From positions 1 through 37,931 of the IMG/VR virus record IMGVR_UViG_3300020183_000215: a DNA stretch of 37,931 bases; one strand, 5' to 3'. The DNA comes from a virus. Positions within the stretch are counted from its first letter, which is position 1. Every line of letters starts with the position of its first letter. The translations under genes were made by a program, and so were the position numbers. Under the pieces are notes generated by a model. It did no database searches. It worked only from the letters and a program-made list of their open reading frames with translations, and was not told the origin of the DNA. Shown here in pieces: positions 1 to 29,439 of the stretch.

Positions 1-2222
1 GTCAAAATAGTATCGCCAGTTGTTACGCCACCAACAGAAATTCTTCCTTCGATTGGGTACGTTTCAAAGATGCCAGATTTGAGCAAGAACTCGCCAGTGA
101 TTGTGATTCTCGATCCGTAAGTGTTACTGCCGTCGACACCGTCAGCTACCGTATGAATGTTGTATCTCTGTAATTGACGCTGGCGTCTCGCTCTAATATT
201 GTTGAGCGTGCCAGTAAATTGACCAGCAGAACCAGTTAAGTTATTAAGATCCGATACCGAATAATTCCCAGAAGGGACGTGGATATAAATACCCGAGTCA
301 AGTCCGATAGTCGATGCAGTTCCTTGCTTAAACTCGCCATCGATAGTGACGACATTAGTCGCTTCGTTAACATCTAAGATGCGCCCAAATGTTCTTGCAG
401 TGTTCTTAACTTCGTCGCTGACCGAGAAGATATCGCCCGGTTGCAGGAACGCAGCCTCAACGCCGCCAACGAACGACACGATGTCAGACTCGAACATCGA
501 AGAGCACAAGACGTAGCGTCCAATTCTACGAGCTTCTGAACGTGAAGTGCAACCAGCAGCATTGATTTTAAATGGATTTAAGCCGAACTTACGAGCGCCG
601 TCAACATCTTCAATATACTCTACTTTGGTTTTGTAACCGTCATACTTATCGTTATAAACGACTTCTACGGAAGTATATCTGACGTTTCGCGCCGTTTCGC
701 TATATTCGAAAAGACCGTCTCGAACATTTGCATTCGAGAACTGCATAACAGGATCTTGTGGTCTATCGGCGTAAAAAGAGAAACCTTCCGTGTTCCAGTA
801 AACGATGCCCTTAAATACGGCTGAGACATCGCGCAATACATTGTAAGCCTCGTCTTTATTGTAGAAGATGATGTTGTATGTGTAGCGTGGCTCTAAGCCA
901 CCTTTGCCGTCTGGAACGCCTCGGAAAATACCCTTGTCATCTACAGCGTCACAATACCTACCGATATCGTAAAGCGTCCACTTGTCGAGTGACGAAAAGT
1001 CGATTTGGTTGCCCAAACCATAATTCGTATTCGTGATGATATCGTAAAGAACCCAAGCTGGATTATCGGTCCAGCCTAACTTGAACGTGCCATCCCAGTC
1101 ACCGTAGTAAACCTTGTTGCTATCGTAAAACTTATCGTCACAGAACTGCTGAAAATCGATATCAGAGTCGTGGAGCATATTGAATGCGCCACCATTTACT
1201 TTTGTCGAAAGTTCTCGGAATGTTCTAGTTCCAGAAGACGAAGCGTTGCTGTAGAAATAATAAAGCTGAACGCAGTTTTCAGTCGAGTATCTGAAGAGAG
1301 CGTCGTAAGTCGATTCGGTCATCGATTCTGGATTTGCGCCGCCAAAGAAAACAACTTTTCTTACAGTGTTTGACCAAAGAGAGTCAACAACAACCGATTC
1401 AAGCTTTTTGCCCATTTCACGATTCGATGCGTAGAGATTCTTTCTGATTAAATATGAAACTGCTCCAACTTCACTATAAGCGGCAGAGACGGTGCTTTCT
1501 TGCAGTAGCGTATCTAGCTCAGTAAAAAGATTTTGATTGTTTGCTCCAGCAGAATCTGGCGAGCGAACAGTCATGAACGATTCCGAATCGTAATATGAGA
1601 AGTTCGTTAGCTTCGGACCATTGATGACGCTATAGCTGACGCCGCTATCCACTTTCCAAATTGCTGCCCTTACCGCAGTATAACCAGCGGTCATCTTCGC
1701 AATCATTTCTTTTAAATTGCGACGAATCAAAGCCTTATTCGCAAATGTCATATTCTTGTCTACGACAAAAATAATATCTAGATTATTCGGATTAGCCGGA
1801 TAGTTTGCGCTTGGATAAACATAACGACGGTCAAGACCATTTCCGCCCAGTGGATAGTAATTGGACGGGATCTTAATCTTCTTCATTCTCACGTCGAATG
1901 CGCGTTCTGGTAAATTCGCAAAGGTTCGCGAATCAAACTTTACTCCAACGTGAGCTGTTAGCGGATAAGAGAAATTACGATCAATAACTTCTGTAATACT
2001 ATCTACATAAACTTCGCGCTTAACGAGCGGAGAAATAGTTTCTTCGCTGCGCTTTTCAATTTTGATGTAGCGATCTTTGCCATTTACTGATTCTGGTAAA
2101 ACGATTTCATCAACTCCTTCAGATACATTCGTTAAATCAACTGACTTTTCAAAAGCCGTTTGGTTCGCGTCGATTGGATCTCCCGCTCCTCTTAAGAATC
2201 TAAATGGATTTAAGATTTTCAT
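1..2222 (-). CDS. J: Tail tip attachment protein J, distal half (partial at window edge)
   Basis: This frame stays open from the ATG at 2222 to the window edge, about 740 residues without a stop. It is the central and distal part of a lambda gpJ-type central tail hub. The hallmark WTDNPAW...YDIITNTNYGLG segment lies around residues 384-404, and a FSYP...FDSRTFANLPERAFDV segment typical of J proteins around 84-111. Between them, at about residues 148-365, is an inserted domain with a von Willebrand A-like pattern: a hydrophobic strand LDIIFVVDKN, helices, then RKVVFFGGANPES and a later strand. The MIDAS site is degenerate. The protein begins MKILNPFRFLRGAG, nearly the same as the first 14 residues of the upstream J half (start 3657), so J is encoded as two ORFs. 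No Shine-Dalgarno sequence is obvious. The J identity is sure; why it is split is not known. Confidence 0.9.
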   Translation of the reverse strand, partial: MKILNPFRFLRGAGDPIDANQTAFEKSVDLTNVSEGVDEIVLPESVNGKDRYIKIEKRSEETISPLVKREVYVDSITEVIDRNFSYPLTAHVGVKFDSRTFANLPERAFDVRMKKIKIPSNYYPLGGNGLDRRYVYPSANYPANPNNLDIIFVVDKNMTFANKALIRRNLKEMIAKMTAGYTAVRAAIWKVDSGVSYSVINGPKLTNFSYYDSESFMTVRSPDSAGANNQNLFTELDTLLQESTVSAAYSEVGAVSYLIRKNLYASNREMGKKLESVVVDSLWSNTVRKVVFFGGANPESMTESTYDALFRYSTENCVQLYYFYSNASSSGTRTFRELSTKVNGGAFNMLHDSDIDFQQFCDDKFYDSNKVYYGDWDGTFKLGWTDNPAWVLYDIITNTNYGLGNQIDFSSLDKWTLYDIGRYCDAVDDKGIFRGVPDGKGGLEPRYTYNIIFYNKDEAYNVLRDVSAVFKGIVYWNTEGFSFYADRPQDPVMQFSNANVRDGLFEYSETARNVRYTSVEVVYNDKYDGYKTKVEYIEDVDGARKFGLNPFKINAAGCTSRSEARRIGRYVLCSSMFESDIVSFVGGVEAAFLQPGDIFSVSDEVKNTARTFGRILDVNEATNVVTIDGEFKQGTASTIGLDSGIYIHVPSGNYSVSDLNNLTGSAGQFTGTLNNIRARRQRQLQRYNIHTVADGVDGSNTYGSRITITGEFLLKSGIFETYPIEGRISVGGVTTGDTIL

Positions 2223-2238
2223 CTACTAGTAAATATTA

Positions 2239-2772
2239 TTATGTAATCGAGAATGTTCTAACTCCATCTGTGCCACCAGTTAACTTTGTTAAGCCCTTTG
2301 GCGATTGGGCGTTGATATAAACAGTATGCGTTCCCGTAGCGAGCTTCGAAGTCACCTCGGCTTGGATCGTAAATGAAAACACTCCCGTAGTGGCGTTAAT
2401 GTCTGTGCCGTTTGCGTAAATGACTTGTGGCGTATTGCCATTACTAGCTGGGCTATCTATATGAGCCGCCAAGGATAATGTTGGAGTAAGAATTGTGGTA
2501 GCTCCAAGAGTTCTGTTGAACGTTGCCGTTCCGGTTAGTGTGATAGTGGCTCCCTTAGCGTAACTTGAACTAGAAAGAGCATCAAAAGTAGCGGTTGTCC
2601 CCGCGCCTTCTCCAACCAAAGTATAAACATAGTTTTGTACCGCAGTGTATGGATTTGAAAATGGCGACGTTGAAAGCTTTTTTAAATAATAGATAACCCC
2701 CAAAACCGTTGAATAGTTCCGCTTATTGATCTTTGTCGCCGCTAACTGCTCTGGAGTATATTGAATAGACAT
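2239..2772 (-). CDS. Small tail-tip associated protein, Ig-like, between the two J halves
   Basis: A 177-residue protein encoded between the two halves of J in the same minus-strand operon. The N-terminal 50 residues are helical and polar (YTPEQLAATKINKRNYS). The rest is rich in Thr, Ser, Gly and Ala with alternating beta-strand patterns such as KGATITLTGTATF and GVFSFTIQAEVTS, ending in GVRTFSIT, which looks like one or two Ig-like beta sandwiches. I do not recognise a named family. Its position suggests a structural accessory of the tail tip, perhaps a decoration or receptor-binding module. It lies 22 bases after the proximal J half and 16 bases before the distal half. Confidence 0.75.
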   Translation of the reverse strand: MSIQYTPEQLAATKINKRNYSTVLGVIYYLKKLSTSPFSNPYTAVQNYVYTLVGEGAGTTATFDALSSSSYAKGATITLTGTATFNRTLGATTILTPTLSLAAHIDSPASNGNTPQVIYANGTDINATTGVFSFTIQAEVTSKLATGTHTVYINAQSPKGLTKLTGGTDGVRTFSIT

Positions 2773-2793
2773 TTTTTATTCGGTGTCAACGTT

Positions 2794-3657
2794 TTAAGGT
2801 AAGGGTAAACCGCGAGGAAGCGTCTTTTCAATGTCGTCGTTAAAGTCAATTGGTAGGATATTTACTCTTGTGCTGGCTCCACCAACCGACGAAGCGGGAT
2901 TGAAATTGGTATTTGTTGCCGCGTAGTAAGCACCATCAGTAGTTTCGCCTTCTGAAATCGAGCCGTCGCCAATAGTATATGCGTATGGGCTTTGAACTAA
3001 TCCGTAGAAACTAACATCTCTAACTTGCAAGTTAGACTCTCCATCCAATCCCCAGTATAAACGCAAGAAAAGCGTCGATTCTTTAGCTGTTCCAGCTTTT
3101 GTTCCCGCATCTACAGTATCCGCCAAAGCTTCAATTAAAAAGTTTACACGAAGCTTTTTGACATCGCGGTTTCTGATTTGGTGAGTAAATATGAATGGGT
3201 CTTGTGGTGCCGTCGGCCAACCATCGGTTGAACGCGCCCAGCTTGTAAAGTTTCTGCCATCTGGCTTATCTGGTGGTCGAACGTCATCCCGCATCGTGAT
3301 CGGGCCGAGCAGTTTAAAGCTTGCTGGTTTAGAGATATAAACGTTTTTAAAGTTAGCTAAAGCTTTCTGCTTTTCTGTGCCAAAGTTTACTTCGAGGAGA
3401 ATGCTTCTATAATTGTATTCTCCTCTAACGTTCATAACTGGAACGCCATTCAAATAAACTCCCTTTAGCATATCTAGGCCATAAACTTTTTTGCCAAACG
3501 GATCGACAATACCTTCGATTGGACCCTCGCAAAGCAAGTCAACGATTTCTGCCACAGAAATAGACTTCTTGAGTTTCTTGCCCTCGTCTGGCGGCAGAAG
3601 TTTAGCCTCGGATGTTCCCATCCCTCTGAAAAATCTTAATGGATTTAGAATTTTCAT
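2794..3657 (-). CDS. J: Tail tip protein J, proximal (N-terminal) half
   Basis: The 287-residue product carries the N-terminal domain of lambda gpJ-type hubs: after MKILNPLRFFRGMG comes LKKSISVAEIVDLLCEGPIEG (about residues 30-50), then KGVYLNGVPVMN. These motifs begin nearly all J proteins. It ends after PRGLPLP, where a full-length J would continue into the region encoded at 2222-1. The ATG at 3657 is chosen because it sits one base after the stop of I and gives the leader shared with the distal half; an upstream ATG at 3744 would put the start inside I. Together with the distal ORF it should build the hub at the tail tip. It could be two subunits that assemble, or a J gene interrupted by duplication and insertion. 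Confidence 0.85.
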   Translation of the reverse strand: MKILNPLRFFRGMGTSEAKLLPPDEGKKLKKSISVAEIVDLLCEGPIEGIVDPFGKKVYGLDMLKGVYLNGVPVMNVRGEYNYRSILLEVNFGTEKQKALANFKNVYISKPASFKLLGPITMRDDVRPPDKPDGRNFTSWARSTDGWPTAPQDPFIFTHQIRNRDVKKLRVNFLIEALADTVDAGTKAGTAKESTLFLRLYWGLDGESNLQVRDVSFYGLVQSPYAYTIGDGSISEGETTDGAYYAATNTNFNPASSVGGASTRVNILPIDFNDDIEKTLPRGLPLP

Positions 3658-3658
3658 C

Positions 3659-6634
3659 TTAGAATATAGATGGGAGTGACTGAATCGGAGGAACGCTTCT
3701 CTCGATGCTTTCGTTTTGCGTTGACAAGAAAGTAACGCCAACACGAATTGTCGGAGACAAATACTTTTTCACTCCCTTTGTAATCTCACACTGCCAGAAA
3801 GAAACATACTTAGCGTAGCCCGTGTCTTCACGTTCCGAAGTGAACGTCACTAGTCTTTGACTGTCTGCTTGAACTGCCGCAAGATCGATAACTTCAGAAG
3901 CGAATGCTCCTGCGCCAGAAAATGCCGTAGAGTTCTTTAAGAACACTGTGCCAACTGTTGCCGATGTTGCGCCGACACTAGTCCAATTAGCTGCCGTGCC
4001 GACAACATTGATTCTGTACTTCTTGCCAGCAACCATTGAAGATGCAGCGATATCTCCGCGCTGTGTATAGATCGGAGAATTTGAAGCGATCAAATTAGAA
4101 TCGGTCTTGCGATTGAGAAGCTGATTTTCTCCAACCACAGTGAACGAAGCCGCGCCAGTCTTTCTGTAAGAGATCTTAATCTTGTTTCTGCCGACACCAG
4201 TTCTAAGTCTGGCGTAAACTCTATGATAACCAGTTGTTAGAGTTACAGCGTTGACAACAGGAGAGCTGTTTTCGTCGTGGCTCGAAGCTAAGATACCGTT
4301 GACGTATAGATCGGCAAAGGCGTCGTTTGTTTCGAGACATTCGATCTTAAAGTCGTAAGAATTTACTGGCGCGACTTTTCCGTTTCCAGTTGCAGCAGTC
4401 GCGTTCTTTGTAAACGTCATGCCAACAACAGGAGGAACCGAGCCAACGCCAATCGTTGACCACTGAGCAGAAGTGCCAACTTTTGTAATCTCGTAAACAG
4501 TGCCGCTATTCGCTGAAATAACGCTAATTTCTCTCACAGCTAGCGGATCGGTCGAGATGATGTCAGTGTTCTTGTTTAATGGGATATAGAAGTAGCCCAA
4601 AAATTCGAGCGTGTAGTTGCCGACATCAGAAGCGTTACTGTTGATCTCTGAAATATTTACTGCCGAGAAGTCGCCAGTATAGAGGTTTTGATTGATTGGC
4701 AACTTGACATAACTCAAATAAGTGTCGAAAGTGCCAGACGCTGTTGGAATAGTTTCCGCTGTCCAGAAAGAGCTGTCAGTAGGCAACTTGCCCTGAGCAT
4801 TAGACGTTGCGCGGTAAATTTGCTCTCTGATCGGTGGGATAAATAGTGACCAGAAATTATTCACTCCGCTAGTAAACAATTTTACAACGGCGCTGATTTT
4901 TGTTTGATCTAGGATATCGGCGCTTTCTGCAACTACCGTGTAAGTTTCGGAACCGCTAGGCGATCCGCTCAACGTATAAGTAAACGTCGTGTCGCTCGTT
5001 CTTGTGATCGTGTACGTTCCGTTAGGATCTACTGCGCCAGTCAAGTTTGCAATCTGCGCCGAAGTTCCCGTGATTTCCGAAAGAACAATCGGATTGAAAG
5101 GAGTGGCCGAGTTTCCAAGAGTGATCGTCACTACCGCATTGCTGCGAGTTGCGCTTGCAATATACGACTTAGCGAGTGGAGGGTGCGTGTTTAACACCGC
5201 TCTACCAGCGGTTACTGTATAAGTTTCCGTTCCCGTATCCAAAGTAGCTAATGTGTAAGTGAATTGATTTGCGGCAGTTACAGTAATATTGTAGTAGCCG
5301 TTTGGATTAACATTGCCAGTGCTCAGTCCAAAGATCGTCGCTTTGAAGTTGCTTGCGAAATTATGATTCGAAGAAGTCGTAATGGTTACGGTTGCTCCAG
5401 ATCGACTCGCCGTCGAGATAGTTGCGACGGCGGGAATACTCGTTGTGCATCTAAAGAAAATGCTACTTAACGTAACAATTTCTCCGCTAACGTATCGAGT
5501 GTTATTGTCCCAAGCCGATTTTGGCGACGCCTCGAATTGTGATGGCCCCCAAATAACCAAAGAGTCAGTCGGGTATAAAATCATGTAATTCGAATCGGTG
5601 CGGTTTTGCGCAGCGTTCGAAATTAATTGAAACTCTTGCGGGCGAGCGAAACGATAGAGCGCACCTTCAGAAAACGAGTAAGAATTTTCCTGCTGAATCG
5701 CGCTCTTTGTCGAATCTGAAGAAGACAATTGCTTCCATTTGTACGTCAAATCTTCATCGTAGGTTGACAGATTTGGGTTCGAAATAATTTCACCATCTTG
5801 CTTTACTCGAAGCTCAACGATGTTAGACGAAACTTTTTTAGCGGACTTCGTAACGATATCAATGTACGACTGCGAGAGAGAAACATCGACAACTGAAACC
5901 GCATCTTCAAATACGGCAGTTTGATTCGAACGATACCCGTCGATTTCAAGCTCATCAATACCTTCGTAAGCTGGGATAGCGTCAATCGGCCTTGAAGTTG
6001 GCGTCATCAAAGCCTTCACATCGTAATTTAAACGATAATTATTGATCGAGGCACTGATTTGCGAGCTGCCGATGATCAGTCTACCATAGCCAACTGGAAC
6101 GGCTTGACCTTGAGAAGTGTTGCTCGGCTTGCTTCCGAAAAGATAAGACTTGCCGCCCGCAGAAACTTCTTGGTTAAAGTCGGGCTTGGGCGTTGGGAAT
6201 AATAATCCCATGACGCCTTGCGTTAATAAGGCACCGCCAACTAGCAAACCGATCTTTGCGGCTCCTCCGCTAAGGAGCGCTAAGCCAGCAGGAGCACCGA
6301 ACGCAGCAAAGCCACCCGAGATCGCAATAACCGCAACAGCCGCGACAATCAAAAGAATATTCTTTACGCTATCTCCAGCACCCCACACCACAGGGACCAA
6401 ATGAATTTCTTGTGGCGTTTTAATGATGTCGAGTTCGAGAGGATCTTCGATAACTTGATCATCAACAACGATTCTGTAAAATACACCTTTTGCCGCCAGC
6501 TTCTTTAACGCGGCCAAAAAGCCGCGACGATTTGCATTGATCGCAGTAAACGCTTCTCTTGGTTTCGAAATGTTGTATCGAAACTCATGACCAAACAAGT
6601 TGCGTAGTTCGCCGTATAGATAAATGTTAGTCAT
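3659..6634 (-). CDS. I: Tail assembly protein I with long C-terminal extension
   Basis: The first 205 or so residues match lambda gpI-type tail assembly proteins: a ubiquitin-like start (YLYGELRNLFG), then two hydrophobic segments (about residues 90-145) and the VGYGRLIIGSSQISASI segment. Lambda gpI is only about 220 residues; this protein has 991. The remaining 780 or so residues are beta-rich and contain two internal duplications: a pair of about 75-residue modules near residues 400-475 and 495-570 (both ending TYTV), and a pair of about 45-residue modules near 711-756 and 865-910 (Y.I..VGT...W..IG...VG..F). Such modules are common in phage structural proteins. The gene overlaps K by 8 bases. 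The extension probably stays on the mature tip, so this may be a structural protein and not only an assembly factor. Confidence 0.85.
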   Translation of the reverse strand: MTNIYLYGELRNLFGHEFRYNISKPREAFTAINANRRGFLAALKKLAAKGVFYRIVVDDQVIEDPLELDIIKTPQEIHLVPVVWGAGDSVKNILLIVAAVAVIAISGGFAAFGAPAGLALLSGGAAKIGLLVGGALLTQGVMGLLFPTPKPDFNQEVSAGGKSYLFGSKPSNTSQGQAVPVGYGRLIIGSSQISASINNYRLNYDVKALMTPTSRPIDAIPAYEGIDELEIDGYRSNQTAVFEDAVSVVDVSLSQSYIDIVTKSAKKVSSNIVELRVKQDGEIISNPNLSTYDEDLTYKWKQLSSSDSTKSAIQQENSYSFSEGALYRFARPQEFQLISNAAQNRTDSNYMILYPTDSLVIWGPSQFEASPKSAWDNNTRYVSGEIVTLSSIFFRCTTSIPAVATISTASRSGATVTITTSSNHNFASNFKATIFGLSTGNVNPNGYYNITVTAANQFTYTLATLDTGTETYTVTAGRAVLNTHPPLAKSYIASATRSNAVVTITLGNSATPFNPIVLSEITGTSAQIANLTGAVDPNGTYTITRTSDTTFTYTLSGSPSGSETYTVVAESADILDQTKISAVVKLFTSGVNNFWSLFIPPIREQIYRATSNAQGKLPTDSSFWTAETIPTASGTFDTYLSYVKLPINQNLYTGDFSAVNISEINSNASDVGNYTLEFLGYFYIPLNKNTDIISTDPLAVREISVISANSGTVYEITKVGTSAQWSTIGVGSVPPVVGMTFTKNATAATGNGKVAPVNSYDFKIECLETNDAFADLYVNGILASSHDENSSPVVNAVTLTTGYHRVYARLRTGVGRNKIKISYRKTGAASFTVVGENQLLNRKTDSNLIASNSPIYTQRGDIAASSMVAGKKYRINVVGTAANWTSVGATSATVGTVFLKNSTAFSGAGAFASEVIDLAAVQADSQRLVTFTSEREDTGYAKYVSFWQCEITKGVKKYLSPTIRVGVTFLSTQNESIERSVPPIQSLPSIF

Positions 6635-6989
6635 AACGTTTCTTTAACATATCAACGTATTCTTTCTTAACGTGCGATACCTTGGGCATCACCAAGTTGA
6701 ATTCTTGAGTCTGCTTGCTGTAAATAAGATAAGGAATGCAAGAGTTGTCGCAATTGAACTGGTCGAACTTCGACTCGTCTTCGCCCGTCTTTGGGTGCGA
6801 GTGATAGATCGCAACAAGGTTACCCGAACGAATCTTCTTCAAGATTTCGAGCGGATGAATCTCAAATATATTATCGGCGTAAGTGGCAATGTTCTTCGCT
6901 GGCTCAGTTTTCAGTTCGCCGTTCTCAACGGTTACGAATCCGCAAACTTCCAAATCGGACGATAAAGCGTGTTCAACGATTGTAGTCAT
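6627..6989 (-). CDS. K: Tail tip assembly protease K-like (JAB/MPN domain)
   Basis: A 120-residue JAMM metalloprotease domain like the N-terminal half of lambda gpK. The zinc motif is HSHPKTGEDESKFD (H-x-H-P...S-x-x-D), with the catalytic Glu candidate in the preceding segment LEVCGFV. The NlpC/P60 peptidoglycan hydrolase half found in lambda gpK is absent. It starts within a TAATG overlap with the L stop and overlaps I by 8 bases, so the L-K-I trio is translationally coupled. It probably processes a tail component during tip assembly. Confidence 0.88.
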   Translation of the reverse strand: MTTIVEHALSSDLEVCGFVTVENGELKTEPAKNIATYADNIFEIHPLEILKKIRSGNLVAIYHSHPKTGEDESKFDQFNCDNSCIPYLIYSKQTQEFNLVMPKVSHVKKEYVDMLKKRYD

Positions 6990-7969
6990 TACTGATTAAA
7001 ATTGATCGGGTACTCCTCGGTTCCCGGAAATCCGCCGAACGGCAATTCTGCATTTTCGCCAAAGCGTAGCTTGCAGCCGCCGATAGACTTTGAGCACTGA
7101 TCTGCCATCCAGAACTCTTTATTGATAGATGGATTTTTGCCTGCGGTAGCCGTGTGAGCCTTAACGCAAATATAGAACTTTTGAAGCGGTTTCCAGTTTG
7201 GGTTCGCGTTGATATTCTCTTCCGAGACTTTTACATTCGTGTTTTCAACGTAAACGTAGTCGGCTATCGAGTAGCTTGTGCCGGACGTCCAGCGTCCTTT
7301 ATTCACTTTGTTTGCTAAAGACGTTGACGTGTTAGCTTCAATATTGATAGCATTCTCGAACAATTGATTGTTATCGTCAGCTACTGGAGGACCATTGAAT
7401 CCGCATCCGTTGCCGCGATAATGAAACGAACAGTAACGCGACATTACGATACGCTTCGGGAACGTGACGCTATCGAGTTCAAGAGGCGAAGCGAGTTCAA
7501 GCTCAACGATGGCTCTGTTCTCTGAAGAACGGCGCAGAACAAAAAAGACTTGATCTTCTAGCCCAGCAGTTGCATCTGCGGCACCGTATGGATTCTTCGA
7601 GTCCGAAAAGTTAACGTTGTCCAAGAACTTAAGGAACGTTCTCTTACGGACAACTTTTGCGCCAACAAGGTTGTTGTAACGGCGAATAAGGTTCGAAACA
7701 AAGAAGTCTTGGTTCGAAATAGTTAGTTTCGGGCGCGGAAGCGAGCCATCACCCTTACTTTCGAAACCCGAGCTTTGGATTGGAAACGGCGAATACTCTT
7801 CGCCTTGCCAGTAGATCGAACCGTTTATCCCATTTGTGCCGCCATGAATGTAAAGTTGTTGGTCAGGTTGATTAACGTAGTCGTAATAAATAACAAAAAA
7901 CTCCAAAAGAGCCGTTGGCTCTAGTGAAAAAAGCTCCGCATTGACTTTCTGGTTAGACTCCCTTGACAT
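6989..7969 (-). CDS. L: Tail tip protein L
   Basis: A 326-residue lambda gpL-type minor tail protein. The C-terminal half has the Cys pattern known from gpL, which binds an iron-sulfur cluster in lambda: YCSFHYRGNGCGF around residues 177-189 and DQCSKSIGGCKLRFG near the C terminus, then the typical ELPFGGFPG ending. The N-terminal part (EFFVIYYDY...LYIHGG) matches family starts. It is the first gene of the minus-strand tail-tip operon seen here. The start at 7969 follows an AAGG-rich ribosome site and a TATAAT box within the 30-base divergent intergenic region. Confidence 0.9.
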   Translation of the reverse strand: MSRESNQKVNAELFSLEPTALLEFFVIYYDYVNQPDQQLYIHGGTNGINGSIYWQGEEYSPFPIQSSGFESKGDGSLPRPKLTISNQDFFVSNLIRRYNNLVGAKVVRKRTFLKFLDNVNFSDSKNPYGAADATAGLEDQVFFVLRRSSENRAIVELELASPLELDSVTFPKRIVMSRYCSFHYRGNGCGFNGPPVADDNNQLFENAINIEANTSTSLANKVNKGRWTSGTSYSIADYVYVENTNVKVSEENINANPNWKPLQKFYICVKAHTATAGKNPSINKEFWMADQCSKSIGGCKLRFGENAELPFGGFPGTEEYPINFNQ

Positions 7970-10254: not shown

Positions 10255-10407
10255 ATGAAAGTAATCAAAGTGACAAAAGAGTATTTCGAGACAGAGGACG
10301 AGAAGGTTTATTTCTTCGAGCCTTTGGGAAAAGAAATATCCGTTGAGGATATGCAGAAGATTGTGGACACAAACAAGAAATTAGTTAAGGAGTTGAGAAG
10401 CAAATGA
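10255..10407 (+). CDS. Small acidic/basic protein, first gene of the mom operon
   Basis: A 50-residue protein (starts MKVIKVTKEYFETED) with a good AAGGAG ribosome site. It is highly charged, with a short beta start and a C-terminal helix (EDMQKIVDTNKKLVKELRSK). Its stop overlaps the ATG at 10404 in an ATGA, so it is coupled to the mom ORF. I recognise no family. Possible roles are a partner or regulator of Mom; phage Mu mom also has a small upstream partner gene, com, which activates mom translation, but this protein lacks the Cys zinc-finger residues of Com. The analogy is therefore positional only. Confidence 0.65.
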   Translation: MKVIKVTKEYFETEDEKVYFFEPLGKEISVEDMQKIVDTNKKLVKELRSK

Positions 10408-11042
10408 ATAATTGCGGGGATAGTTTAAAGGTAGAACAAGGAACATTCCAGTTCCAAGATGGCGGTTCGATTCCGACCTCTCCGCTCCATTTTTATATTA
10501 CTGACTTACAGCACAAAGAGGCTAAATCCTTTGTAGAAAAGTGGCATTACTCGCATAGGATACCTACGGGTAAAAACATCTATTTTGGTTTGTGGTGGGG
10601 GAAAGAATTATATGCGGTCATAGTGTATGGAATAGGAGTAAATCCGTATCAGGCAAAATTCTTAAATGTTGACTCAGTAATAGAGATAAAAAGAATGTGC
10701 CGTTCGGAACCAAAGAAGCCCTATGAGTTGTCAAGATTTATTCGCTTGTCCTTGAAGATGGCGAAAAAACTCATGGAGTTTAAAGCAGTAGTTGCTTTTG
10801 CAGACCCAGAGCAAGGGCATGAGGGGACTGTTTATAAGGCTACTGGATTTACGCACGAAGGATATACAAATCCAGAGTGGCATTTGATTGGGGCTGATGG
10901 CGAAAAGAGGCATCGCCGTTATGCCTTCAGGATGGCGCGAAGAAACGGAATAACCGTTTCCGAGGCAAGAGAAGTGCTTGGAATGAAAAGAGTGAAAACA
11001 GAACCTAAACACAGATGGGTTCTCCGGTTAAAACCCGCATGA
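10404..11042 (+). CDS. mom: Mom-family adenine modification enzyme
   Basis: The product matches the Mom family of DNA modification proteins, GNAT-fold enzymes that convert adenine in DNA to N6-carbamoylmethyladenine and protect phage DNA from restriction. Visible family features are KSFVEKWHYSHRIP (residues 41-54), NIYFGLWW, KRMCRSEPKKPYELSRFIRL (97-114) and AFADPEQGHEGTVYKATGF (131-149). Counting from the ATG at 10404, the first 28 or so residues are encoded by the tRNA-like sequence at 10414-10489 and are unlike any Mom N terminus. No ATG, GTG or TTG lies between the tRNA end and the conserved region, so translation must begin at 10404 (ATGA-coupled) or at a rare codon such as the ATT at 10497. 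The stop overlaps the recombinase start (ATGA). A-rich codons and AGA/AGG arginines differ from the flanking genes and suggest transfer. Confidence 0.85.
   Translation: MNNCGDSLKVEQGTFQFQDGGSIPTSPLHFYITDLQHKEAKSFVEKWHYSHRIPTGKNIYFGLWWGKELYAVIVYGIGVNPYQAKFLNVDSVIEIKRMCRSEPKKPYELSRFIRLSLKMAKKLMEFKAVVAFADPEQGHEGTVYKATGFTHEGYTNPEWHLIGADGEKRHRRYAFRMARRNGITVSEAREVLGMKRVKTEPKHRWVLRLKPA
10414..10489 (+). tRNA. tRNA-Gly(UCC)-like gene embedded in the mom operon
   Basis: A 76-base cloverleaf with encoded CCA. The acceptor stem GCGGGGA/TCTCCGC has seven pairs including one G-U. The D arm is GTTT/GAAC with GG in the loop. The anticodon stem GGAAC/GTTCC is perfect but encloses only six bases (ATTCCA), one fewer than normal, with anticodon TCC. 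The T loop is a canonical TTCGATT; the T stem pairs GGCGG with CCGACC only if one A is bulged. Known bacterial glycyl-tRNA synthetase identity bases are kept: G1-C72, C2-G71, U73, C35 and C36. The two defects make normal decoding and firm EF-Tu binding doubtful, while charging remains plausible. It lies inside the N-terminal coding part of the mom ORF on the same strand. It could be a dedicated glycyl donor or a decayed tRNA. Confidence 0.75.
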
Positions 11043-11647
11043 AAATATACAAAATCACCGAAGCCTCTGAATACTTGGGAGTGTCAATAAACACTCTCAA
11101 GACGCTTGCTAATAACGGCAAGATAAACTCTTTCAAGACAACTGGAAGCCATCGGCGTTTTCGTCAGGAAGATTTAGATGCTTTCATGGGCGTTGAGAAA
11201 GAGAAGCAAGAAAAGGTTACGGTGATTTACGCAAGATGTTCAACGGCAAAGCAGAAAGAGAATCTTGAACGGCAAAAAGAACGGTTGATGAAACATGCAG
11301 AAGCCAAAGGTTACAAGTATGTGATGATTGATGAGATTGCCAGCGGGATAAACGAAAAGAGAAATGGCATACACAAGTTAATCAAGATGTGTTTTGAGGG
11401 TAAAGTTGCACGAGTGCTTATTGAATACAAAGATAGGCTTGCTCGATTTGGTTATGAATATCTGGATGCAATCTTTTCAATTCAGGTTGAAGTAATGGAA
11501 GTGAAAGACAAGAAATATGAAGAAGAACTTGCAGAGGATATTATGAAAATTCTTACTTGTTATTCAGCGAGATATTACGGCGCAAGAGGCGGTAGGAAGA
11601 AGAAAAACAAGGCTGAAAATGAGTCTATCGAATCTAATGGAATTTGA
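11039..11647 (+). CDS. tnpA: IS607-type serine recombinase (TnpA)
   Basis: A 202-residue IS607-family transposase. Residues 1-50 form a MerR-like helix-turn-helix (ITEASEYLGVSINTLKTLAN, then GSHRRFRQEDL). The serine recombinase domain follows: VIYARCST with catalytic Ser68, then the YKDRLARFGY arginine motif and the family ending EEELAEDIMKILTCYSARYYG. The ATG at 11039 is chosen over 11015 because it gives the family N terminus and an ATGA overlap with mom. IS607 elements normally carry tnpB next to tnpA; here no tnpB or guide-RNA remnant is seen and mom takes its place. Expected to excise and insert the element without target duplication. Confidence 0.93.
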   Translation: MKIYKITEASEYLGVSINTLKTLANNGKINSFKTTGSHRRFRQEDLDAFMGVEKEKQEKVTVIYARCSTAKQKENLERQKERLMKHAEAKGYKYVMIDEIASGINEKRNGIHKLIKMCFEGKVARVLIEYKDRLARFGYEYLDAIFSIQVEVMEVKDKKYEEELAEDIMKILTCYSARYYGARGGRKKKNKAENESIESNGI

Positions 11648-11666: not shown

Positions 11667-11885
11667 ATGAATCGATACGCTCTTCTCAAAGATGTTATTG
11701 TTCAAGCCGACTGCCCAATCAATAAAAGATCGAGTGATCGAGTCGTTTTGCCGAGCGGCGAAGAGATTTCGATTCACGGCGAAACGTTCGACTTGTTCGA
11801 CGCATCGGTGCGCTACTGGGCAACTGGTAACGGCTGGGTGTTAAAAATCACCGATAACGACTTACCTTACTTTAAAAAGATTTAA
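11667..11885 (+). CDS. Unknown protein, 72 residues
   Basis: Starts MNRYALLKDVIVQADCPIN, chosen at 11667 because AAAGGAGG lies about 12 bases upstream; an upstream ATG at 11619 lies inside tnpA. Beta-rich with a tryptophan-containing C terminus (VRYWATGNGWVLKITDND). Codon use (CGA, TCG) is that of the phage, so this is the first native gene after the element. No family recognised. Confidence 0.7.
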   Translation: MNRYALLKDVIVQADCPINKRSSDRVVLPSGEEISIHGETFDLFDASVRYWATGNGWVLKITDNDLPYFKKI

Positions 11886-11886
11886 T

Positions 11887-12543
11887 ATGATAACAAAAGA
11901 AGAAAGCGAGAAAAAAGTTTTTTCCGAATTTTTGCTTGTTAAAAACAGCGTTGAAAAAATTCTCGGCGAAACAATCAAAAACGAAGAGTTTAAGCAGGCT
12001 ATCGCCGACGTATGCAAAAAGATTATTGTTCCGGCGCGAAATAAAGAAGATAAAGATAATGAGCTAGTTGATGACATAAAAGCATTTATGGAATTTTTTG
12101 ACAATTGCAAGCACCTCCTCGGAAATACTGTTTGGAACGAGATACAAGAAAAGTATCTTAAAATCGAAATTTCTTACGAATCGAAAGTTATTTCGAGTTG
12201 GAAAATTCCAATCGAAATGATGTTCTCTCATCCAGAGTCGTTCGAACTCGGGATGCCGACACTAATCGAAAGCTTCGAAGACGTGTTTCTTTGTTCGTGT
12301 CTCGACCCGTCTTATCGTCAACGAATTATGCAGGGCGACGATCAAGCGATCAAGATCTTGTACTCTGTATTTCAGAATAACGGAACGAGCAGTTGCTCCG
12401 CGATTCAGCTAATGATCAAAGAAAATTTCCCCGAGTTTTACGATCACATCACGAAAAAACTCGATGTGATGAAGTTCGAGGAGATCCCCGAGGAATCGAA
12501 AGCTAAAAAAGGGGGAAAACGTAAGCCAGTAAAGCGTAAATAA
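11887..12543 (+). CDS. Unknown helical protein with basic tail
   Basis: A 218-residue, largely alpha-helical protein (VKNSVEKILGETIKNEEFKQ, DDIKAFMEFFDNCKHLLGN) ending in a lysine/arginine-rich tail (KAKKGGKRKPVKRK) that could bind nucleic acid. One base separates it from the previous stop. No named domain recognised. Confidence 0.75.
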   Translation: MITKEESEKKVFSEFLLVKNSVEKILGETIKNEEFKQAIADVCKKIIVPARNKEDKDNELVDDIKAFMEFFDNCKHLLGNTVWNEIQEKYLKIEISYESKVISSWKIPIEMMFSHPESFELGMPTLIESFEDVFLCSCLDPSYRQRIMQGDDQAIKILYSVFQNNGTSSCSAIQLMIKENFPEFYDHITKKLDVMKFEEIPEESKAKKGGKRKPVKRK

Positions 12544-12547
12544 TATT

Positions 12548-13198
12548 GTGCCATATCTAAACGCCAATATTCCAGTATTCGCAGCCTACATTAAGAGCGA
12601 TTTTTTCTACAACAACACCAACACAAAGACAGACTATGTTCTTTGCGAAGTGTTTGGGATCACGAGTTTAACGCGACGATGCCTCACGTTTCAGGTAATG
12701 ACCGAGTACGGATCGCGACACGACCGAGTGCCGATTCATTATCTCGTTAACGAGCCTGAGCACAGCAATCTTCCGTTAGACTGGCTCCAGCTTTGGGACT
12801 GTTTCTCTTACAACTTATCGGTTACTCGTTGGGAATATCACAAGAACGCTCAAGTTAAAATTCAATTAAAGAATCATGAATGGATCAAAGGTAAATACTT
12901 ATTCACAATCGATTGGCACGACAATCCCGATGCGGCGTATGGCTACAGCGAGATGGCGGGCGGTCACAAGTGCGGTCACGTCATTTGGGGCGTTTCTGAC
13001 AAAGACGGCAAGCCAGTTAACCAACTTTTTTGCCAGCCCAACAACCGTGTCGTCTGGTCGGACGGCGGCGCGTTCATCTCGAAAAAGCTCGAAAAGCCGG
13101 ATTGGAAAGTCTTCTCGCAAGAGTTTTCGTGCGAAGGTGGCGCGAAATGGGTAGCCGAAGATAACTGGGACTACTTTTACCAGTTCAAAGAAGAATGA
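12548..13198 (+). CDS. Unknown protein, 216 residues, GTG start
   Basis: The GTG at 12548 opens the frame 4 bases after the previous stop. The product is rich in Trp, Tyr and His (LPLDWLQLWDCFSYNLS, YLFTIDWHDNPDAAYGYSEM, GHKCGHVIWGV). This looks like a conserved soluble phage protein, but I cannot assign a function. The stop overlaps the next start (ATGA). Confidence 0.8.
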   Translation: MPYLNANIPVFAAYIKSDFFYNNTNTKTDYVLCEVFGITSLTRRCLTFQVMTEYGSRHDRVPIHYLVNEPEHSNLPLDWLQLWDCFSYNLSVTRWEYHKNAQVKIQLKNHEWIKGKYLFTIDWHDNPDAAYGYSEMAGGHKCGHVIWGVSDKDGKPVNQLFCQPNNRVVWSDGGAFISKKLEKPDWKVFSQEFSCEGGAKWVAEDNWDYFYQFKEE

Positions 13199-13687: not shown

Positions 13688-14143
13688 ATGAAACTGAGCC
13701 AAGCAGAAGTGCCTCTCTCCCCAGAGGACCATGACCTTTACAATTATTCGTTAACAACAAACTCAAGAGGCTACGTTTGTACTGGTGCAAGAAAGTTTGG
13801 CGAAAGAAGAGTTCACAAGATAGTCGCGAGCAGAATGGGAATCGTTAACCAAAATGGTTCACGTCTGCAAATTGACCATATTAATCAAAATAAATTTGAT
13901 AACCGCAGAGAAAATCTACGGTTAGTCGATAGGTACGTCAACATGAATAATTGCAAGCGTGCATTGAGGGCCAAGGGGGACACGATCGTCAAAGGAAAAT
14001 TTCACGCTTACATCGGAATTAATGGGAAAAGCATTTATCTTGGCACGTTCGATAATCCAGAAGAAGCTCGAAAAGCTTTCGTCGCCGCAAAAAATAAATA
14101 CTTGACAGAGCTGGGCCTAACTGATGTTTTGTTAACAGAATGA
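13688..14143 (+). CDS. HNH endonuclease with AP2-like DNA-binding domain
   Basis: A 151-residue homing-type endonuclease. The HNH core is RRVHKIVASRMG...LQIDHINQNKFDNRRENLRLV (about residues 40-83): H in RVHK, the DH pair and the N of NRRENL. The C-terminal AP2-like domain is KFHAYIGINGKSIYLGTFDN followed by PEEARKAF. Such genes are usually selfish free-standing endonucleases in phages. The ATG at 13688 is preferred to 13661 because it avoids a 23-base overlap. It overlaps uvdE by 4 bases. Confidence 0.9.
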   Translation: MKLSQAEVPLSPEDHDLYNYSLTTNSRGYVCTGARKFGERRVHKIVASRMGIVNQNGSRLQIDHINQNKFDNRRENLRLVDRYVNMNNCKRALRAKGDTIVKGKFHAYIGINGKSIYLGTFDNPEEARKAFVAAKNKYLTELGLTDVLLTE

Positions 14144-15045
14144 ATCTAGCTCTTTGCTGCATCTCCAACATCCTTGCCGAACAAGGTCACAAGTTTCAAA
14201 CTATGACCTACACTCGCTTTGCTTCGCTGCCCCGAGACGAGGCTTTGCGCGTGCTCTCTGAGCGCATCCTCAACAACTTCATCGTCACCGACTTGACGAT
14301 CAATCACTGCGCCAAGCTTGGCATCGCTGGCTATCGCTTGTCGTCAAGCTTAACTCCTGTTATCGATCATCCTAGCGTTGATCTTCAACTCGAACAGTTG
14401 CCCAACTGGTCCAACTTGTCCGCCGCTCTCGACAGCATCAAACACACCATCGAGCAGACTGGTGTCCGCATCTCTGCTCACCCTTCCGAATATGTTTCGC
14501 TAACTAGCGACTCTCCGACCGTTATCGCTAACAGCACGCGAGATCTCATTTCGCACGCCAATCTTTTTGACCGCATCGGTTTGCCGAGCGATTATCGTTC
14601 GCCGCTTAACATTCACTGCCGTCAGGACGGTGACCCCGCCGCAGTCTCGCAGCAGTTTATCAGCAACTTCAACAAACTGCCGAGCAACGTTCGCTCTCGC
14701 TTGACTCTCGAAGTCAATGACAACGTTGGCGGCACTTGGACCGTTGCCAACTTGTTCAAGCACTTCTTTCAGACCAGCGGCATTCCAGTCACTTACGATT
14801 CGCTGCACCGCTCGCTCTGCAACGACGGCAGTTCCGACGAACAAGACTTTTTCTTAGCTCGCAAGACTTGGCCTACTACCCCGCTCTTTCACTACTCTGA
14901 AGGTATTGACGGCACGCGCAAGCACGCCGATATGCCTACGTCCACGCCTCGTAGCTACGACACCGACGTTTACTTTGACGTAGAACTTAAAAACAAAGAT
15001 TATGCCATCCTTAAAATCATCAACGATTCAAACAAAGCTAAATAA
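14140..15045 (+). CDS. uvdE: UV damage endonuclease (UvdE/UvsE)
   Basis: A 301-residue TIM-barrel UV damage endonuclease that nicks DNA 5' of cyclobutane dimers and (6-4) photoproducts. Family segments seen are LGIAGYRLSSSLTPVI...HP, RISAHPSEYVSL (about residues 111-122), NIHCRQDGD (metal ligand His), LTLEVNDN (metal Glu) and PVTYDSLHRSLCND (metal Asp/His). The HYSEGIDGTRKHADMP segment is also typical. Length is near that of bacterial family members. Codons end in C far more often than in neighbouring genes, suggesting recent gain. It lets the phage repair UV damage, which fits a sunlit habitat. Confidence 0.92.
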   Translation: MNLALCCISNILAEQGHKFQTMTYTRFASLPRDEALRVLSERILNNFIVTDLTINHCAKLGIAGYRLSSSLTPVIDHPSVDLQLEQLPNWSNLSAALDSIKHTIEQTGVRISAHPSEYVSLTSDSPTVIANSTRDLISHANLFDRIGLPSDYRSPLNIHCRQDGDPAAVSQQFISNFNKLPSNVRSRLTLEVNDNVGGTWTVANLFKHFFQTSGIPVTYDSLHRSLCNDGSSDEQDFFLARKTWPTTPLFHYSEGIDGTRKHADMPTSTPRSYDTDVYFDVELKNKDYAILKIINDSNKAK

Positions 15046-15589: not shown

Positions 15590-15630
15590 CCCGAAAACTG
15601 TGGTAAGGTTTGCGTGCAAATCCATTGCTT
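15582..15630 (+). promoter_or_regulatory. rIIA promoter
   Basis: TTGACT (15582-15587), 16-base spacer, TAAGGT (15604-15609), about 21 bases to the ATG at 15631. The -35 lies over the stop codon of the preceding gene. Confidence 0.55.
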
Positions 15631-17781
15631 ATGATCATCAAAGAAGTCCAGCACAAGGTTGCCCAATCAGACAATTTCAAGAGCGAAATTGCCTCTATCG
15701 ATTCCGAGGAGATGCGTTACGTTTCCTCGCTGCTTCGCAACAACTACTCGAACCCGATCCTCGCGACGGTTCGCGAACTGATCGCCAATGCTTCCGACGC
15801 GAACGTTGGCGAGCAAAAGATCGAAGTTTACTGCCCTTCGTTTTACGCTCCGACGTTCTCGGTTCGTGACTTTGGTGCAGGCTTGAGCGAAGACGATCTC
15901 TTTGGTCTCTACACGAAGTACGGTCGCAGCACGAAGCGCAGCGACAATCTCGCAATTGGCGGTTTTGGCATCGGTCGCTTCGCGCCGCTCTCTTACGCCG
16001 ATTCTTTCACGGTCACGTCGCGCCACAACGGTACGAAGACTGTTGTCAATGTTTTCGTTGACGAGCACGGCGACACTCGCTTCACGAAGCTCGCCTCTTC
16101 ATTGTCGAACGAAGAGAGCGGTTTGGAAGTTTCTGTTGCGATCAAGGGCGGCGACGAGACTAGCTTCAACGACGCAATCAACGTTTGTGTTGCGTTCTCC
16201 TCGAAGCAATTCAAGATCAGCAACGCGGAGTTGTCTCCGATCAAGTGGTTGATCCGTTCCGAAAACTGGGGTTTTTACGAGCGCAATCCGCATCATACGG
16301 GTTCTTTCGTTGTTATGGGCGGTGTTCCTTATCGCATCGACCCAAACCAGATTTTCCCGCTCGTCTCAACTGAGCGTTCTCCGCTGCTTTTCAAGAAGTT
16401 TAGAGGCAGCGAACTGACCTTTAATCACGCTCTTCGCGACTCTAATTTTATTCTTTTTATGCCGATCGGCTCGGTCGCGATTCACCACTCGCGTGAGCAG
16501 TTAGAGTACAACGTAACCACGAAGCGAGTTATTCTCGCGGCACTCGAACGCGCCTTTGGCGAGATCGGAAGCACGTTTCAAGAGAAGCTTGCCGAAAACA
16601 AGACGTTCGAAACGTTCGTTGCTAAACTCCACGAAGCGCAACAAAATTCTTCCCCGCTTCTCCGTCAAGCGGCACGGGCCTGCGTTTTCAAGTTCATCGA
16701 CGCCAACAATGTTTCTCATGACGTTGAACTCCACGACGTTGGCAGCGTTGAGTGCGCTTACAAGCAGTCGAGCGTTAGCTCGAACATTCGCTCGGTCAAG
16801 CGCACCGACTTCGATCCGTCAACGTTTATCTTGTCTCAAATTACTAGCGTTGCGGTCATCATCGATGACCTACCGAAAAACAAGCGTTTGTCCGCTCGTT
16901 CGCAGCGTCTCGTTCTTAATGACAATTCGCTAAAGAATATCATTGTCGTTTCCGAGGAAACTGCGCGAAAGATGCTTTACGTTCATCTCCTCGCTGACCG
17001 CAAGAGTCGCAATATCTTTTTCGCTTCCGAGATCGTTCCTTTTGTTGCCGAGAAGAACACTAACAAAGAATCGGCATTTTTTGTTTTCAATGGAAACTCC
17101 TACATGACGGTTGCGAATCGTTGCTCTATTCCAGAAGGCGAAAAGTTTTATTATGTAAAAATGCGCGACCGCAAGAAAATCGTTTCGAAGCTGTTCGCTG
17201 GCTCCGTTGATGACGTTCGCGAATTTTACAGCGTGCTTAATGCGCTTAATCGAAGGTTTTTCAATAACCGCTTCCGAAAGGTTTACGGTTTTCTGGAAAC
17301 CGCAGAAGTGCCAGAAAATGCAGTTCTGATCGATGACGTTTTAATCCAAAAAATTAACGAACTGTACGAAAAGTTTTCCCCGTACATCTCTGCTGGAAAG
17401 TTCTCTATCAGACTACGCAATATTTTCGACTCTGCACACCGCATGAAGGACGTTGCAGAGAATCTTCCCGAGGGTCACAAGATTCGCGAATTTGTCTCTC
17501 TGTTCGAAATCGAAAAGAAACTTGAACAACTGAGCAAAGAAGATCAGAGTCTGCTCGATAGTTTCAAATCTGGCATTCACAATTACAGGCACTTGTTCCC
17601 GAGGTGCGATATGCTGACCGACGAGCAGTCTGCGGCGACACGGCATTGGTATGAGTTCTTCTGCTCGAAGTATCCGATGGCAGTCTATGCCATTGACTCG
17701 TACAATTTGAAGCAGTCAATTTCCGCTAGTTTCATCAAGGAAATAGCCGATTACATCAATTTTGTGGACAAAAACTCTTGA
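15631..17781 (+). CDS. rIIA: rIIA-like GHKL ATPase
   Basis: A 716-residue rIIA-like protein. The GHKL ATPase motifs are clear: N box RELIANASDA (residues 48-57), G1 RDFGAGLSEDDL (79-90) and G2 GGFGIGRFAPL (110-120). The rest matches no catalytic motif I know. T4 rIIA and rIIB block exclusion by the lambda Rex system and associate with membranes and DNA; the molecular function is still unclear. Here it stands directly before rIIB, as in T4, with its own promoter. The ATG at 15631 is taken because the -10 box ends at 15609; a TTG at 15610 would be too close. Confidence 0.87.
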   Translation: MIIKEVQHKVAQSDNFKSEIASIDSEEMRYVSSLLRNNYSNPILATVRELIANASDANVGEQKIEVYCPSFYAPTFSVRDFGAGLSEDDLFGLYTKYGRSTKRSDNLAIGGFGIGRFAPLSYADSFTVTSRHNGTKTVVNVFVDEHGDTRFTKLASSLSNEESGLEVSVAIKGGDETSFNDAINVCVAFSSKQFKISNAELSPIKWLIRSENWGFYERNPHHTGSFVVMGGVPYRIDPNQIFPLVSTERSPLLFKKFRGSELTFNHALRDSNFILFMPIGSVAIHHSREQLEYNVTTKRVILAALERAFGEIGSTFQEKLAENKTFETFVAKLHEAQQNSSPLLRQAARACVFKFIDANNVSHDVELHDVGSVECAYKQSSVSSNIRSVKRTDFDPSTFILSQITSVAVIIDDLPKNKRLSARSQRLVLNDNSLKNIIVVSEETARKMLYVHLLADRKSRNIFFASEIVPFVAEKNTNKESAFFVFNGNSYMTVANRCSIPEGEKFYYVKMRDRKKIVSKLFAGSVDDVREFYSVLNALNRRFFNNRFRKVYGFLETAEVPENAVLIDDVLIQKINELYEKFSPYISAGKFSIRLRNIFDSAHRMKDVAENLPEGHKIREFVSLFEIEKKLEQLSKEDQSLLDSFKSGIHNYRHLFPRCDMLTDEQSAATRHWYEFFCSKYPMAVYAIDSYNLKQSISASFIKEIADYINFVDKNS

Positions 17782-17815
17782 CAAACAACCAACCATAACC
17801 CAACATAGTAAGACC
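17778..17815 (+). promoter_or_regulatory. rIIB promoter, leaderless type
   Basis: TTGACA (17778-17783) overlaps the rIIA stop; CATAGT (17804-17809) lies 6 bases before the rIIB ATG. The 20-base spacer is long, so the pairing of the two boxes is uncertain. Confidence 0.35.
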
Positions 17816-18892
17816 ATGAATAAGATCCCGTACATTATGCGCGACGAGTCGATCACCGTTTTCTTTGACGGCACGCCGCACACCATCAACAACACGCACG
17901 TTAACTTTCGTGCTTTGCGTCAGGCGATCCTTGATGCCAACTACGATGCGATTCCGTCGCTCTTGTCTATCGAGAAGAAGATCGAGGACATGACTTTCGG
18001 GAACATCAAGATTCGCGACGGCAAGCTCTACTATCACAATACCGAACTTCACGGCGTTGTCGTTCAAAAGCTGCTCAAGTTCCTGAAGGAAGGTTCGAAG
18101 GATGCGATGCCGCTCGTAAACTTCATCGAGCGTATCATGCGCAACCCATCGGCCAACTCCACGAACGAACTCTACACGTTCCTCTCTTACAAGGATTTGC
18201 CGATCACGCCCGAGGGAAAGTTTCTCGCTTACAAGGGTGTTAAAAAGGATTATTATTCTAAGAGCGCGAGCCTTCAGACCACGGTCCTTCAAGGCAAGGT
18301 CAACGAGGCTGGCGAGATTTACAACGGTGTAGGCGAAACGATTGTGGTTGCTCGCAATCAAGTCGATGACAACAAGGAGCATCACTGCTCGTTTGGCTTG
18401 CACGCTGGAAGCTACGACTACGCCAACAATTGGGCCGGGAAGGATGGGCGACTGCTCGTTGTTGAGATCGATCCTGCCGATGCCGTGAGCGTACCGACCG
18501 ACTGCTCGTTCCAGAAGCTTCGCACTTGCGCCTACAAGGTTATCGGCGACATTACCGAGACGCGCCGCGAGATTCCTGACGCAGTATATTCTGGTAGCGA
18601 CGACGCTGACGATTCGAGCGACTGGAGCGACAGTTGCGCCGACTGCGAAGAAGGTAGTTGTGGCTGCGACATCGACTACTCGGATGGTGTTTTCGAAGTC
18701 GAAAACTATGTCCTCAATCAATGGAAGTTTGGCAACGTCGCCCATCTTTCGGACGCTGCGGATCGTCTAGACGACGTTGGTCTCGGTCATTTGAGCCTAG
18801 TCGATATCTTGGAAACTCTCAACATGACGTACATTAAGAGTTCCGAATACGGGTCGGAGATCATTGTTCAGAAGGACAACCACAATGAGTAA
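17816..18892 (+). CDS. rIIB: rIIB-like protein
   Basis: A 358-residue rIIB-like protein. Family marks are DLPITPEGKFLAYKGVKKDY (about residues 127-146), the NGVGETIVVARNQVDD segment and HCSFGLHAGSYDYANNW (about 193-209). The C-terminal part has an acidic Cys-rich patch (DSCADCEEGSCGCDIDY) absent from T4 rIIB as I know it; its six or so Cys/Asp residues could bind a metal. The start at 17816 gives the family N terminus. It overlaps the next gene by 8 bases. Confidence 0.87.
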   Translation: MNKIPYIMRDESITVFFDGTPHTINNTHVNFRALRQAILDANYDAIPSLLSIEKKIEDMTFGNIKIRDGKLYYHNTELHGVVVQKLLKFLKEGSKDAMPLVNFIERIMRNPSANSTNELYTFLSYKDLPITPEGKFLAYKGVKKDYYSKSASLQTTVLQGKVNEAGEIYNGVGETIVVARNQVDDNKEHHCSFGLHAGSYDYANNWAGKDGRLLVVEIDPADAVSVPTDCSFQKLRTCAYKVIGDITETRREIPDAVYSGSDDADDSSDWSDSCADCEEGSCGCDIDYSDGVFEVENYVLNQWKFGNVAHLSDAADRLDDVGLGHLSLVDILETLNMTYIKSSEYGSEIIVQKDNHNE

Positions 18893-21211: not shown

Positions 21212-21287
21212 GGGTCTATGGTGAAATTGCATATCACATCGCTCTTCTAAAGCGAAATTTCGGGATGGTATCCCGATAGACCCACCA
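21212..21287 (+). tRNA. tRNA-Arg(UCU)
   Basis: Acceptor stem GGGTCTA/TAGACCC, discriminator A, encoded CCA. Anticodon arm TCGCT-CTTCTAA-AGCGA gives anticodon TCT. The D arm GTGA/TCAC has no GG in its loop (AATTGCATA), and the T loop is ATGGTAT instead of the usual TTCRANN, on stem TCGGG/CCCGA. All stems are perfect, so the gene looks maintained, but the usual elbow contacts are missing. It would read AGA codons, which are common in the mom element and present in phage genes. Confidence 0.85.
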
Positions 21288-22073: not shown

Positions 22074-22161
22074 GGTCGCGTGCATGGAACGGCAGACAGG
22101 GAGCATTCAAAATGCTCTGCTCTTCGCGAGCGTGAGGGTTCGACTCCCTCCGCGACCACCA
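22074..22161 (+). tRNA. tRNA-Leu(CAA)
   Basis: An 88-base class II tRNA. Acceptor stem GGTCGCG/CGCGACC, discriminator A, encoded CCA. Anticodon arm GAGCA-TTCAAAA-TGCTC gives anticodon CAA for TTG codons. Long variable arm GCTC/GAGC, canonical T arm GAGGG-TTCGACT-CCCTC. Only 4 bases separate the CCA end from the next ATG, so processing of the tRNA may create that mRNA 5' end. Confidence 0.93.
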
Positions 22162-29417: not shown

Positions 29418-29439
29418 AAAACAATAAAAATTGCTGAAC

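Follow-up and report, generated by a model that had tools for sequence, protein, structure and literature searches.

A phage tail hub gene split inside an Ig-like domain, with a short N-terminal leader shared by both halves of some members

Two neighboring minus-strand open reading frames (ORFs) at the edge of a viral contig encode parts of a J-type tail hub and begin with nearly the same peptide, which raises the questions of whether J is genuinely divided here, where it is broken, and how the second half came to carry a leader. The window analyzed in this study is the complete 37,931-nt stretch of IMG/VR record IMGVR_UViG_3300020183_000215. Its tail-tip genes are arranged on the minus strand in the order L, K-like, I-like, JN (proximal J protein), IG, and JC (distal J protein), followed by the contig edge. 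The gpL minor tail protein (6989..7969) was identified with Phage_tail_L (E = 3e-55), the gpK-like tail protein with a JAB domain (6627..6989) with Prok-JAB and phrog_30, and the 991-aa gpI-like tail assembly protein (3659..6634) with phrog_32 across residues 1–198 (E = 1e-34). The gpI-like ORF has a C-terminal extension of ~790 aa and ends a single base before JN begins; residues at about 861–913 of this protein are similar to the C-terminal region of JC from relatives. The plus strand elsewhere in the window encodes a Mom-like DNA modification protein (10404–11042; Pfam Mom, E = 3e-33) adjoined by an ORF with HTH and serine-resolvase parts resembling IS607-type recombinases (11015–11647), a protein matching phrog_3704, annotated as ferredoxin (12548–13198; E = 6e-48), a UvdE-like UV endonuclease (14140–15045; E = 1e-39), overlapping rIIA-like and rIIB-like ORFs (15610–18892), tRNA-Arg (21212–21287), tRNA-Leu (22074–22161), and a clamp-loader-like ORF (29431–30378; phrog_168).

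JN (2794..3657; 287 aa), which begins with MKILNPLRFFRGMG, matched phrog_1727 (E = 9e-11) and phrog_31, annotated as central tail fiber J (E = 1e-9). JC (2222->3; at least 740 aa), which starts with MKILNPFRFLRGAG, matched phrog_31 (E = 6e-110) and Pfam Phage-tail_3 (E = 2e-18); it runs off the contig edge, and the complete JC proteins of relatives comprise about 1,890–1,950 aa. Comparison of the JN start MKILNPLRFFRG (ORF 3657–2794) with the JC start MKILNPFRFLRG (ORF 2222–3) showed that 10 of 12 residues were identical. This pair was the best 12-residue match among the 174 ORF N-termini of the window (runner-up, 7 of 12), and the chance of at least nine matches at the 11 non-Met positions was ~6e-10 per pair. 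The two J ORFs with a common N-terminal leader proposed in the initial annotation are thus present. At the DNA level, the leaders (JN, 3616..3657; JC, 2181..2222) were 81% identical over codons 1–14, and identity dropped on either side, to 33% for the 30 nt before the leader, 24% for -150 to -60, and 19% for the 42 nt after it. The surrounding DNA, described earlier as also alike, is therefore not so. Duplication of flanking DNA was ruled out, as the likeness was confined to the leader and the flanks were chance-like.

To locate the break, we compared the two halves with J-type proteins. A profile built from 35 JN sequences aligned with lambda gpJ residues 10–82 and, weakly, 108–178, and the match of the JC profile to J-type proteins began at residues 168–181 and continued through the hub core. 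FNIII-A occupies residues 72–215 of lambda gpJ (PMC10721106). JN accordingly contains the HDII-insertion strands and most of FNIII-A, and JC in the window contains the end of FNIII-A followed by HDII, HDIII, and HDIV. In alignments with J-type proteins, the segment finishing FNIII-A and the HDII-insertion (JC residues about 38–125; 1848..2111) matched residues 168–258 of the F2-pyocin fibre and 181–260 of 9l9p, immediately after the JN-equivalent part of these chains. The HDIII/HDIV core (288..1127) was assigned from profile positions 364–643, which match solved J-type proteins; E-values of JC against solved J homologs in the PDB reached 1e-76 (8iyk_J, 1e-65). The locus thus has lambda-type J features, with the hub core on JC, the N-terminal HDII-insertion on JN, and L, K, and I upstream; the single polypeptide with an unbroken FNIII-A found in lambda-type J is not a property of the JN/JC family. 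These alignments place the break at about lambda gpJ residues 168–180, inside the Ig-like FNIII-A of the hub. With a break at this site, the JN and JC chains should complete one FNIII-A domain between them.

We searched IMG/VR with JN, JC, the vWA part of JC (described below), and the leader pattern, and recovered many loci. In about 45 distinct clusters, J was encoded by two ORFs flanking an Ig-like gene, and the order JN-IG-JC was found in every locus long enough to show all three genes. None of the ORFs in the family loci matched both JN and JC. Because the JN and JC parts are contiguous in single-ORF relatives, the division might be thought an artefact of a frameshift, sequencing error, recoded stop, or readthrough, with J being one protein. 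However, the reading frames that IG and JC occupy with respect to JN differed between loci, gap lengths varied, a gene intervened, and the JN stop was TAA in all 45 cases tested. These observations, repeated across about 45 clusters, already contradict an artefact, which we regard as scarcely credible, and they exclude the sequencing frameshift that the initial annotation had named as one refutation of its reading. The split with the Ig-like gene between the halves is a fixed trait across an uncultured phage family, and it is not recent. Among isolated phages, no family member was evident: no record covered at least 80% of JC, the matches to JN, in 11 records, were all weak and partial, and IG matched none of the annotated phages.

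The initial annotation had also counted single-ORF relatives of J lacking an extra leader as evidence against it. Such relatives exist: the short viral contig L377 carries the JN and JC parts in a single ORF, and L163, a contig of a Flavobacteriaceae MAG, encodes both parts in a 1441-aa ORF, each without the leader. Rather than counting against the split, they indicate its direction, with fission the likely one, and the split state is probably derived from a single-ORF J. A search through L376 and L377 recovered no further unsplit relatives. L376 was not used for direction because of a run of N inside its J. This contig encodes two J-type N-termini (4066–4890 and 11840–12292, plus strand), possibly belonging to tandem J paralogs, and both start with MKV(I/F)KN, possibly a distant relative of the leader.

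The gene at the break is indeed an ORF of 177 residues (IG; 2239..2772), as annotated initially, and its Ig-like label holds at the level of the fold only. IG had no match in Pfam or PHROG. Its AlphaFold2 model (mean pLDDT, 84) consisted of a hairpin of two N-terminal helices and a beta-sandwich, which Foldseek matched weakly to domains of the Ig/FnIII type (E from 5e-4, low TM-scores). The model supports a predicted Ig/FnIII-like beta-sandwich. An origin of IG as a duplicate of the Ig-like segment of JN/JC was rejected, as no profile similarity was found (hhalign probability <1%). By analogy with lambda gene I, which sits between two genes sharing the HDII-insertion, we speculate that IG may bind at the break in J.

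The split-J family as a whole also carries an insertion in the hub. In the AlphaFold2 model of JC, pLDDT was about 80 in this part only, and the rest of JC was poorly modelled. Structural comparison of JC residues 142–365 with vWA/I domains gave Z-scores of 12–14 (VIA-align), and the segment (1128..1799) is thus predicted to adopt an alpha/beta vWA fold. Among candidate metal-site residues, D155 was invariant and N157 nearly invariant, in an arrangement other than the canonical DxSxS MIDAS. The vWA segment was absent from solved J homologs, in which the flanking segments are adjacent. Similarly, the ORFs of the best 80 JC relatives retained from a scan of bacterial genomes contained neither an IG nor a vWA segment, and the vWA-flanking segments were adjacent. 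A literature search for a divided J or for tail-tip vWA domains yielded nothing, the matches being mostly off-topic.

Next, we focused on the distribution of the leader. Its consensus, MKILNxxRFx[KR]G, marks the N-terminus of JN and precedes a flexible linker. Positions M1, K2, I3, L4, N5, R8, F9, and G12 were invariant in all 35 aligned JN sequences, and the same eight positions were invariant in all 145 leader-bearing JN entries of a redundant set. In a pattern scan of the 2.9 million viral contigs of IMG/VR, the leader was found on JN or JC of the split-J family and on no other gene except one unrelated chance ORF. Seven of 47 JC sequences carried it (the window, L003, L004, L006, L027, L051, and L055), and the other 40 started at their own ATG with short acidic or glycine-rich tails. 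The JC leaders retained R8, F9, K/R11, and G12 and varied chiefly at positions 7 and 10, which are also free in JN. The leader was kept on JC across the divergence between the window and L006 (83% JC identity) and that between L051 and L055, while the adjoining tail diverged.

We then considered how JC came to bear a leader. One reading in the initial annotation was that copying of the leader gave the second half a start of its own and so kept J functional after the insertion. This account does not suit a family that is split throughout and in which most JC proteins start without the leader. Moreover, the DNA upstream of JC in the leader-bearing L055 aligned closely up to the ATG with that of the leaderless L057 and L148, so that leader-bearing and leaderless JC genes, including such sisters, use one start site. 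The two forms of JC differ in place, in the coding sequence alone. Taken by itself, shared upstream DNA is compatible both with loss and with gain of the leader in place, and on the unrooted JC tree the leader trait needed three changes whichever the direction. The JC leaders of L006 and L055 were identical at 11 of 12 positions but shared 9 of 12 with their own JN leaders, suggesting that the leaders of the window clade and of L051/L055 likely had one origin; the JC leader of L027 was identical to its own JN leader (12 of 12). Since the window-clade and L051/L055 leaders are closer to each other than to their own JN, two origins on JC (one in the group of the window clade, L051, and L055, the other in L027) are as likely as three. 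The JC start of L027 is preceded by a longer IG gene and an extra 130-aa ORF (L027 positions 6248–6637, plus strand), also present in the near-copy L026, so that a local rearrangement lies beside its JC leader copy.

The common start site, the three changes in either direction, and the resemblance of the window-clade and L051/L055 leaders would also be expected if the leader were ancestral on JC, for example as the product of a J start duplicated at the split, and had been lost in most lineages, in which case the copying story would be right for the ancestor. We consider this doubtful. In the outgroup-rooted JC tree, the root of which is weak owing to long outgroup branches, leaderless JC sequences were basal and L027 was nested among leaderless relatives, and the identity of the L027 JC leader to its own JN leader also argues against ancestry. 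The leaderless majority and the rooted tree together favor gain over loss. The leader was thus probably added to JC later, in place at an existing start, rather than being the source of that start.

To assess what the leader does, we compared substitutions between the JN and JC copies. Leader DNA differed by five synonymous and no nonsynonymous substitutions in L027 (P = 1.5e-4) and by four and two, respectively, in the window (P = 0.015); as the leader spans 36 nt, such tests have little power within any one genome (L004, P = 0.08). Nonsynonymous differences fell below the random expectation in five of six genomes, although these pairs were not independent, and 18–23 nonsynonymous differences separated JN and JC in the 36 nt after the leader. 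The synonymous bias shows constraint on the leader peptide and is not proof of docking.

The JC leader might instead be a translation-start element, a 5' coding stretch taken from JN that is short, rich in A/T, and unstructured and would secure good initiation of JC in a phage in which most genes have no Shine–Dalgarno (SD) site. SD-like motifs preceded none of 45 JN starts and one of 47 JC starts, so the first codons could matter for initiation. However, neither SD motifs nor folding energy around the JC start (mean, -1.30 kcal/mol with and -1.21 kcal/mol without the leader) differed between leader-bearing and leaderless starts among the 47 JC sequences. Conservation at the protein level up to codon 12, with synonymous variation beneath it, and the predominance of leaderless JC further make a role in initiation unlikely. 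Similar initiation regions combined with mostly synonymous divergence favor a function of the peptide. The leaderless majority also indicates that the leader is dispensable for a working hub, which would accord with a functionless product of recent neutral duplication or gene conversion. This reading seems to us improbable, because the leader persisted across the two divergences described above while the adjoining tail changed, the copies show synonymous bias, and the similarity ends at the leader, unlike that of a recent duplication. From these sequence comparisons, the JC leader is best read as a docking peptide tethered to a hub made of two chains. Of the docking signal suggested initially, a copied leader that looks like a functional peptide is upheld, and docking itself is compatible with the data.

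From the conserved split, the restriction of the leader to JN and some JC proteins, the shared JC start site, and the mostly synonymous copies, we infer a scenario to which we give an even chance of being correct. A lambda-type J hub gene would have undergone fission inside FNIII-A, with the Ig-like gene now at the break, and the JN and JC chains would fold together, rebuilding FNIII-A in the tail tip. After the split, a few lineages, that of the window among them, would have gained a copy of the JN leader in place at the start codon JC already had, rather than retaining one from an ancestor, and would have kept it because it docks the chain on the same partner as the JN leader. A more specific extension, that the second leader doubles the docking peptides on a trimeric hub from three to six and matches the six-fold ring above, is very unlikely; if true, leader-copying lineages would have eased the three-fold/six-fold mismatch of the tail tip with one short linear motif per half. 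The finding that peptide copying is an improbable origin of the second start corrects a tempting evolutionary story. The leader is a short peptide exclusive to the family, its copy on the second chain seems to postdate the split, and the family offers a natural experiment in how the halves of a divided structural protein are held together.

Finally, we compared the family with known systems. The hub core, the HDII-insertion segments, and the L-K-I-J neighborhood are common to the window and lambda gpJ (PDB IDs: 8iyk and 9e7m), whereas lambda gpJ is one chain without the 12-residue leader or a vWA domain and, in the window family, an Ig-like gene separates the genes of the two chains. The best PDB matches to JC, the F2-pyocin tail fibre (PDB ID: 25vf; E = 4e-74) and the J-type fibre 9l9p (E = 1.5e-76), each consist of one chain, which aligns with JC before and after the vWA site but has no insertion there and in which the JN-equivalent part precedes the JC match. 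The integrin I domain (1na5) and the LapA vWFA domain (9no5) share the predicted fold of JC residues 142–365, which in JC is inserted in a phage hub. In lambda gpL/gpJ and RcGTA gp13/gp15, one hub domain, the HDII-insertion, is formed across two proteins, and other genes, among them I in lambda, lie between the two genes of each pair (PMC10721106). A break within one folding domain is thus common to the two-chain hubs of lambda gpL/gpJ and JN/JC, in the latter as judged by alignment, but the break in lambda gpL/gpJ and RcGTA gp13/gp15 is at the N-terminus of J, and the window family has an additional one inside FNIII-A. The known division of hubs among chains, from the single protein pb3 of T5 to L and J of lambda, would thereby extend to a break within a single Ig-like domain of the hub, found only in uncultured phages.
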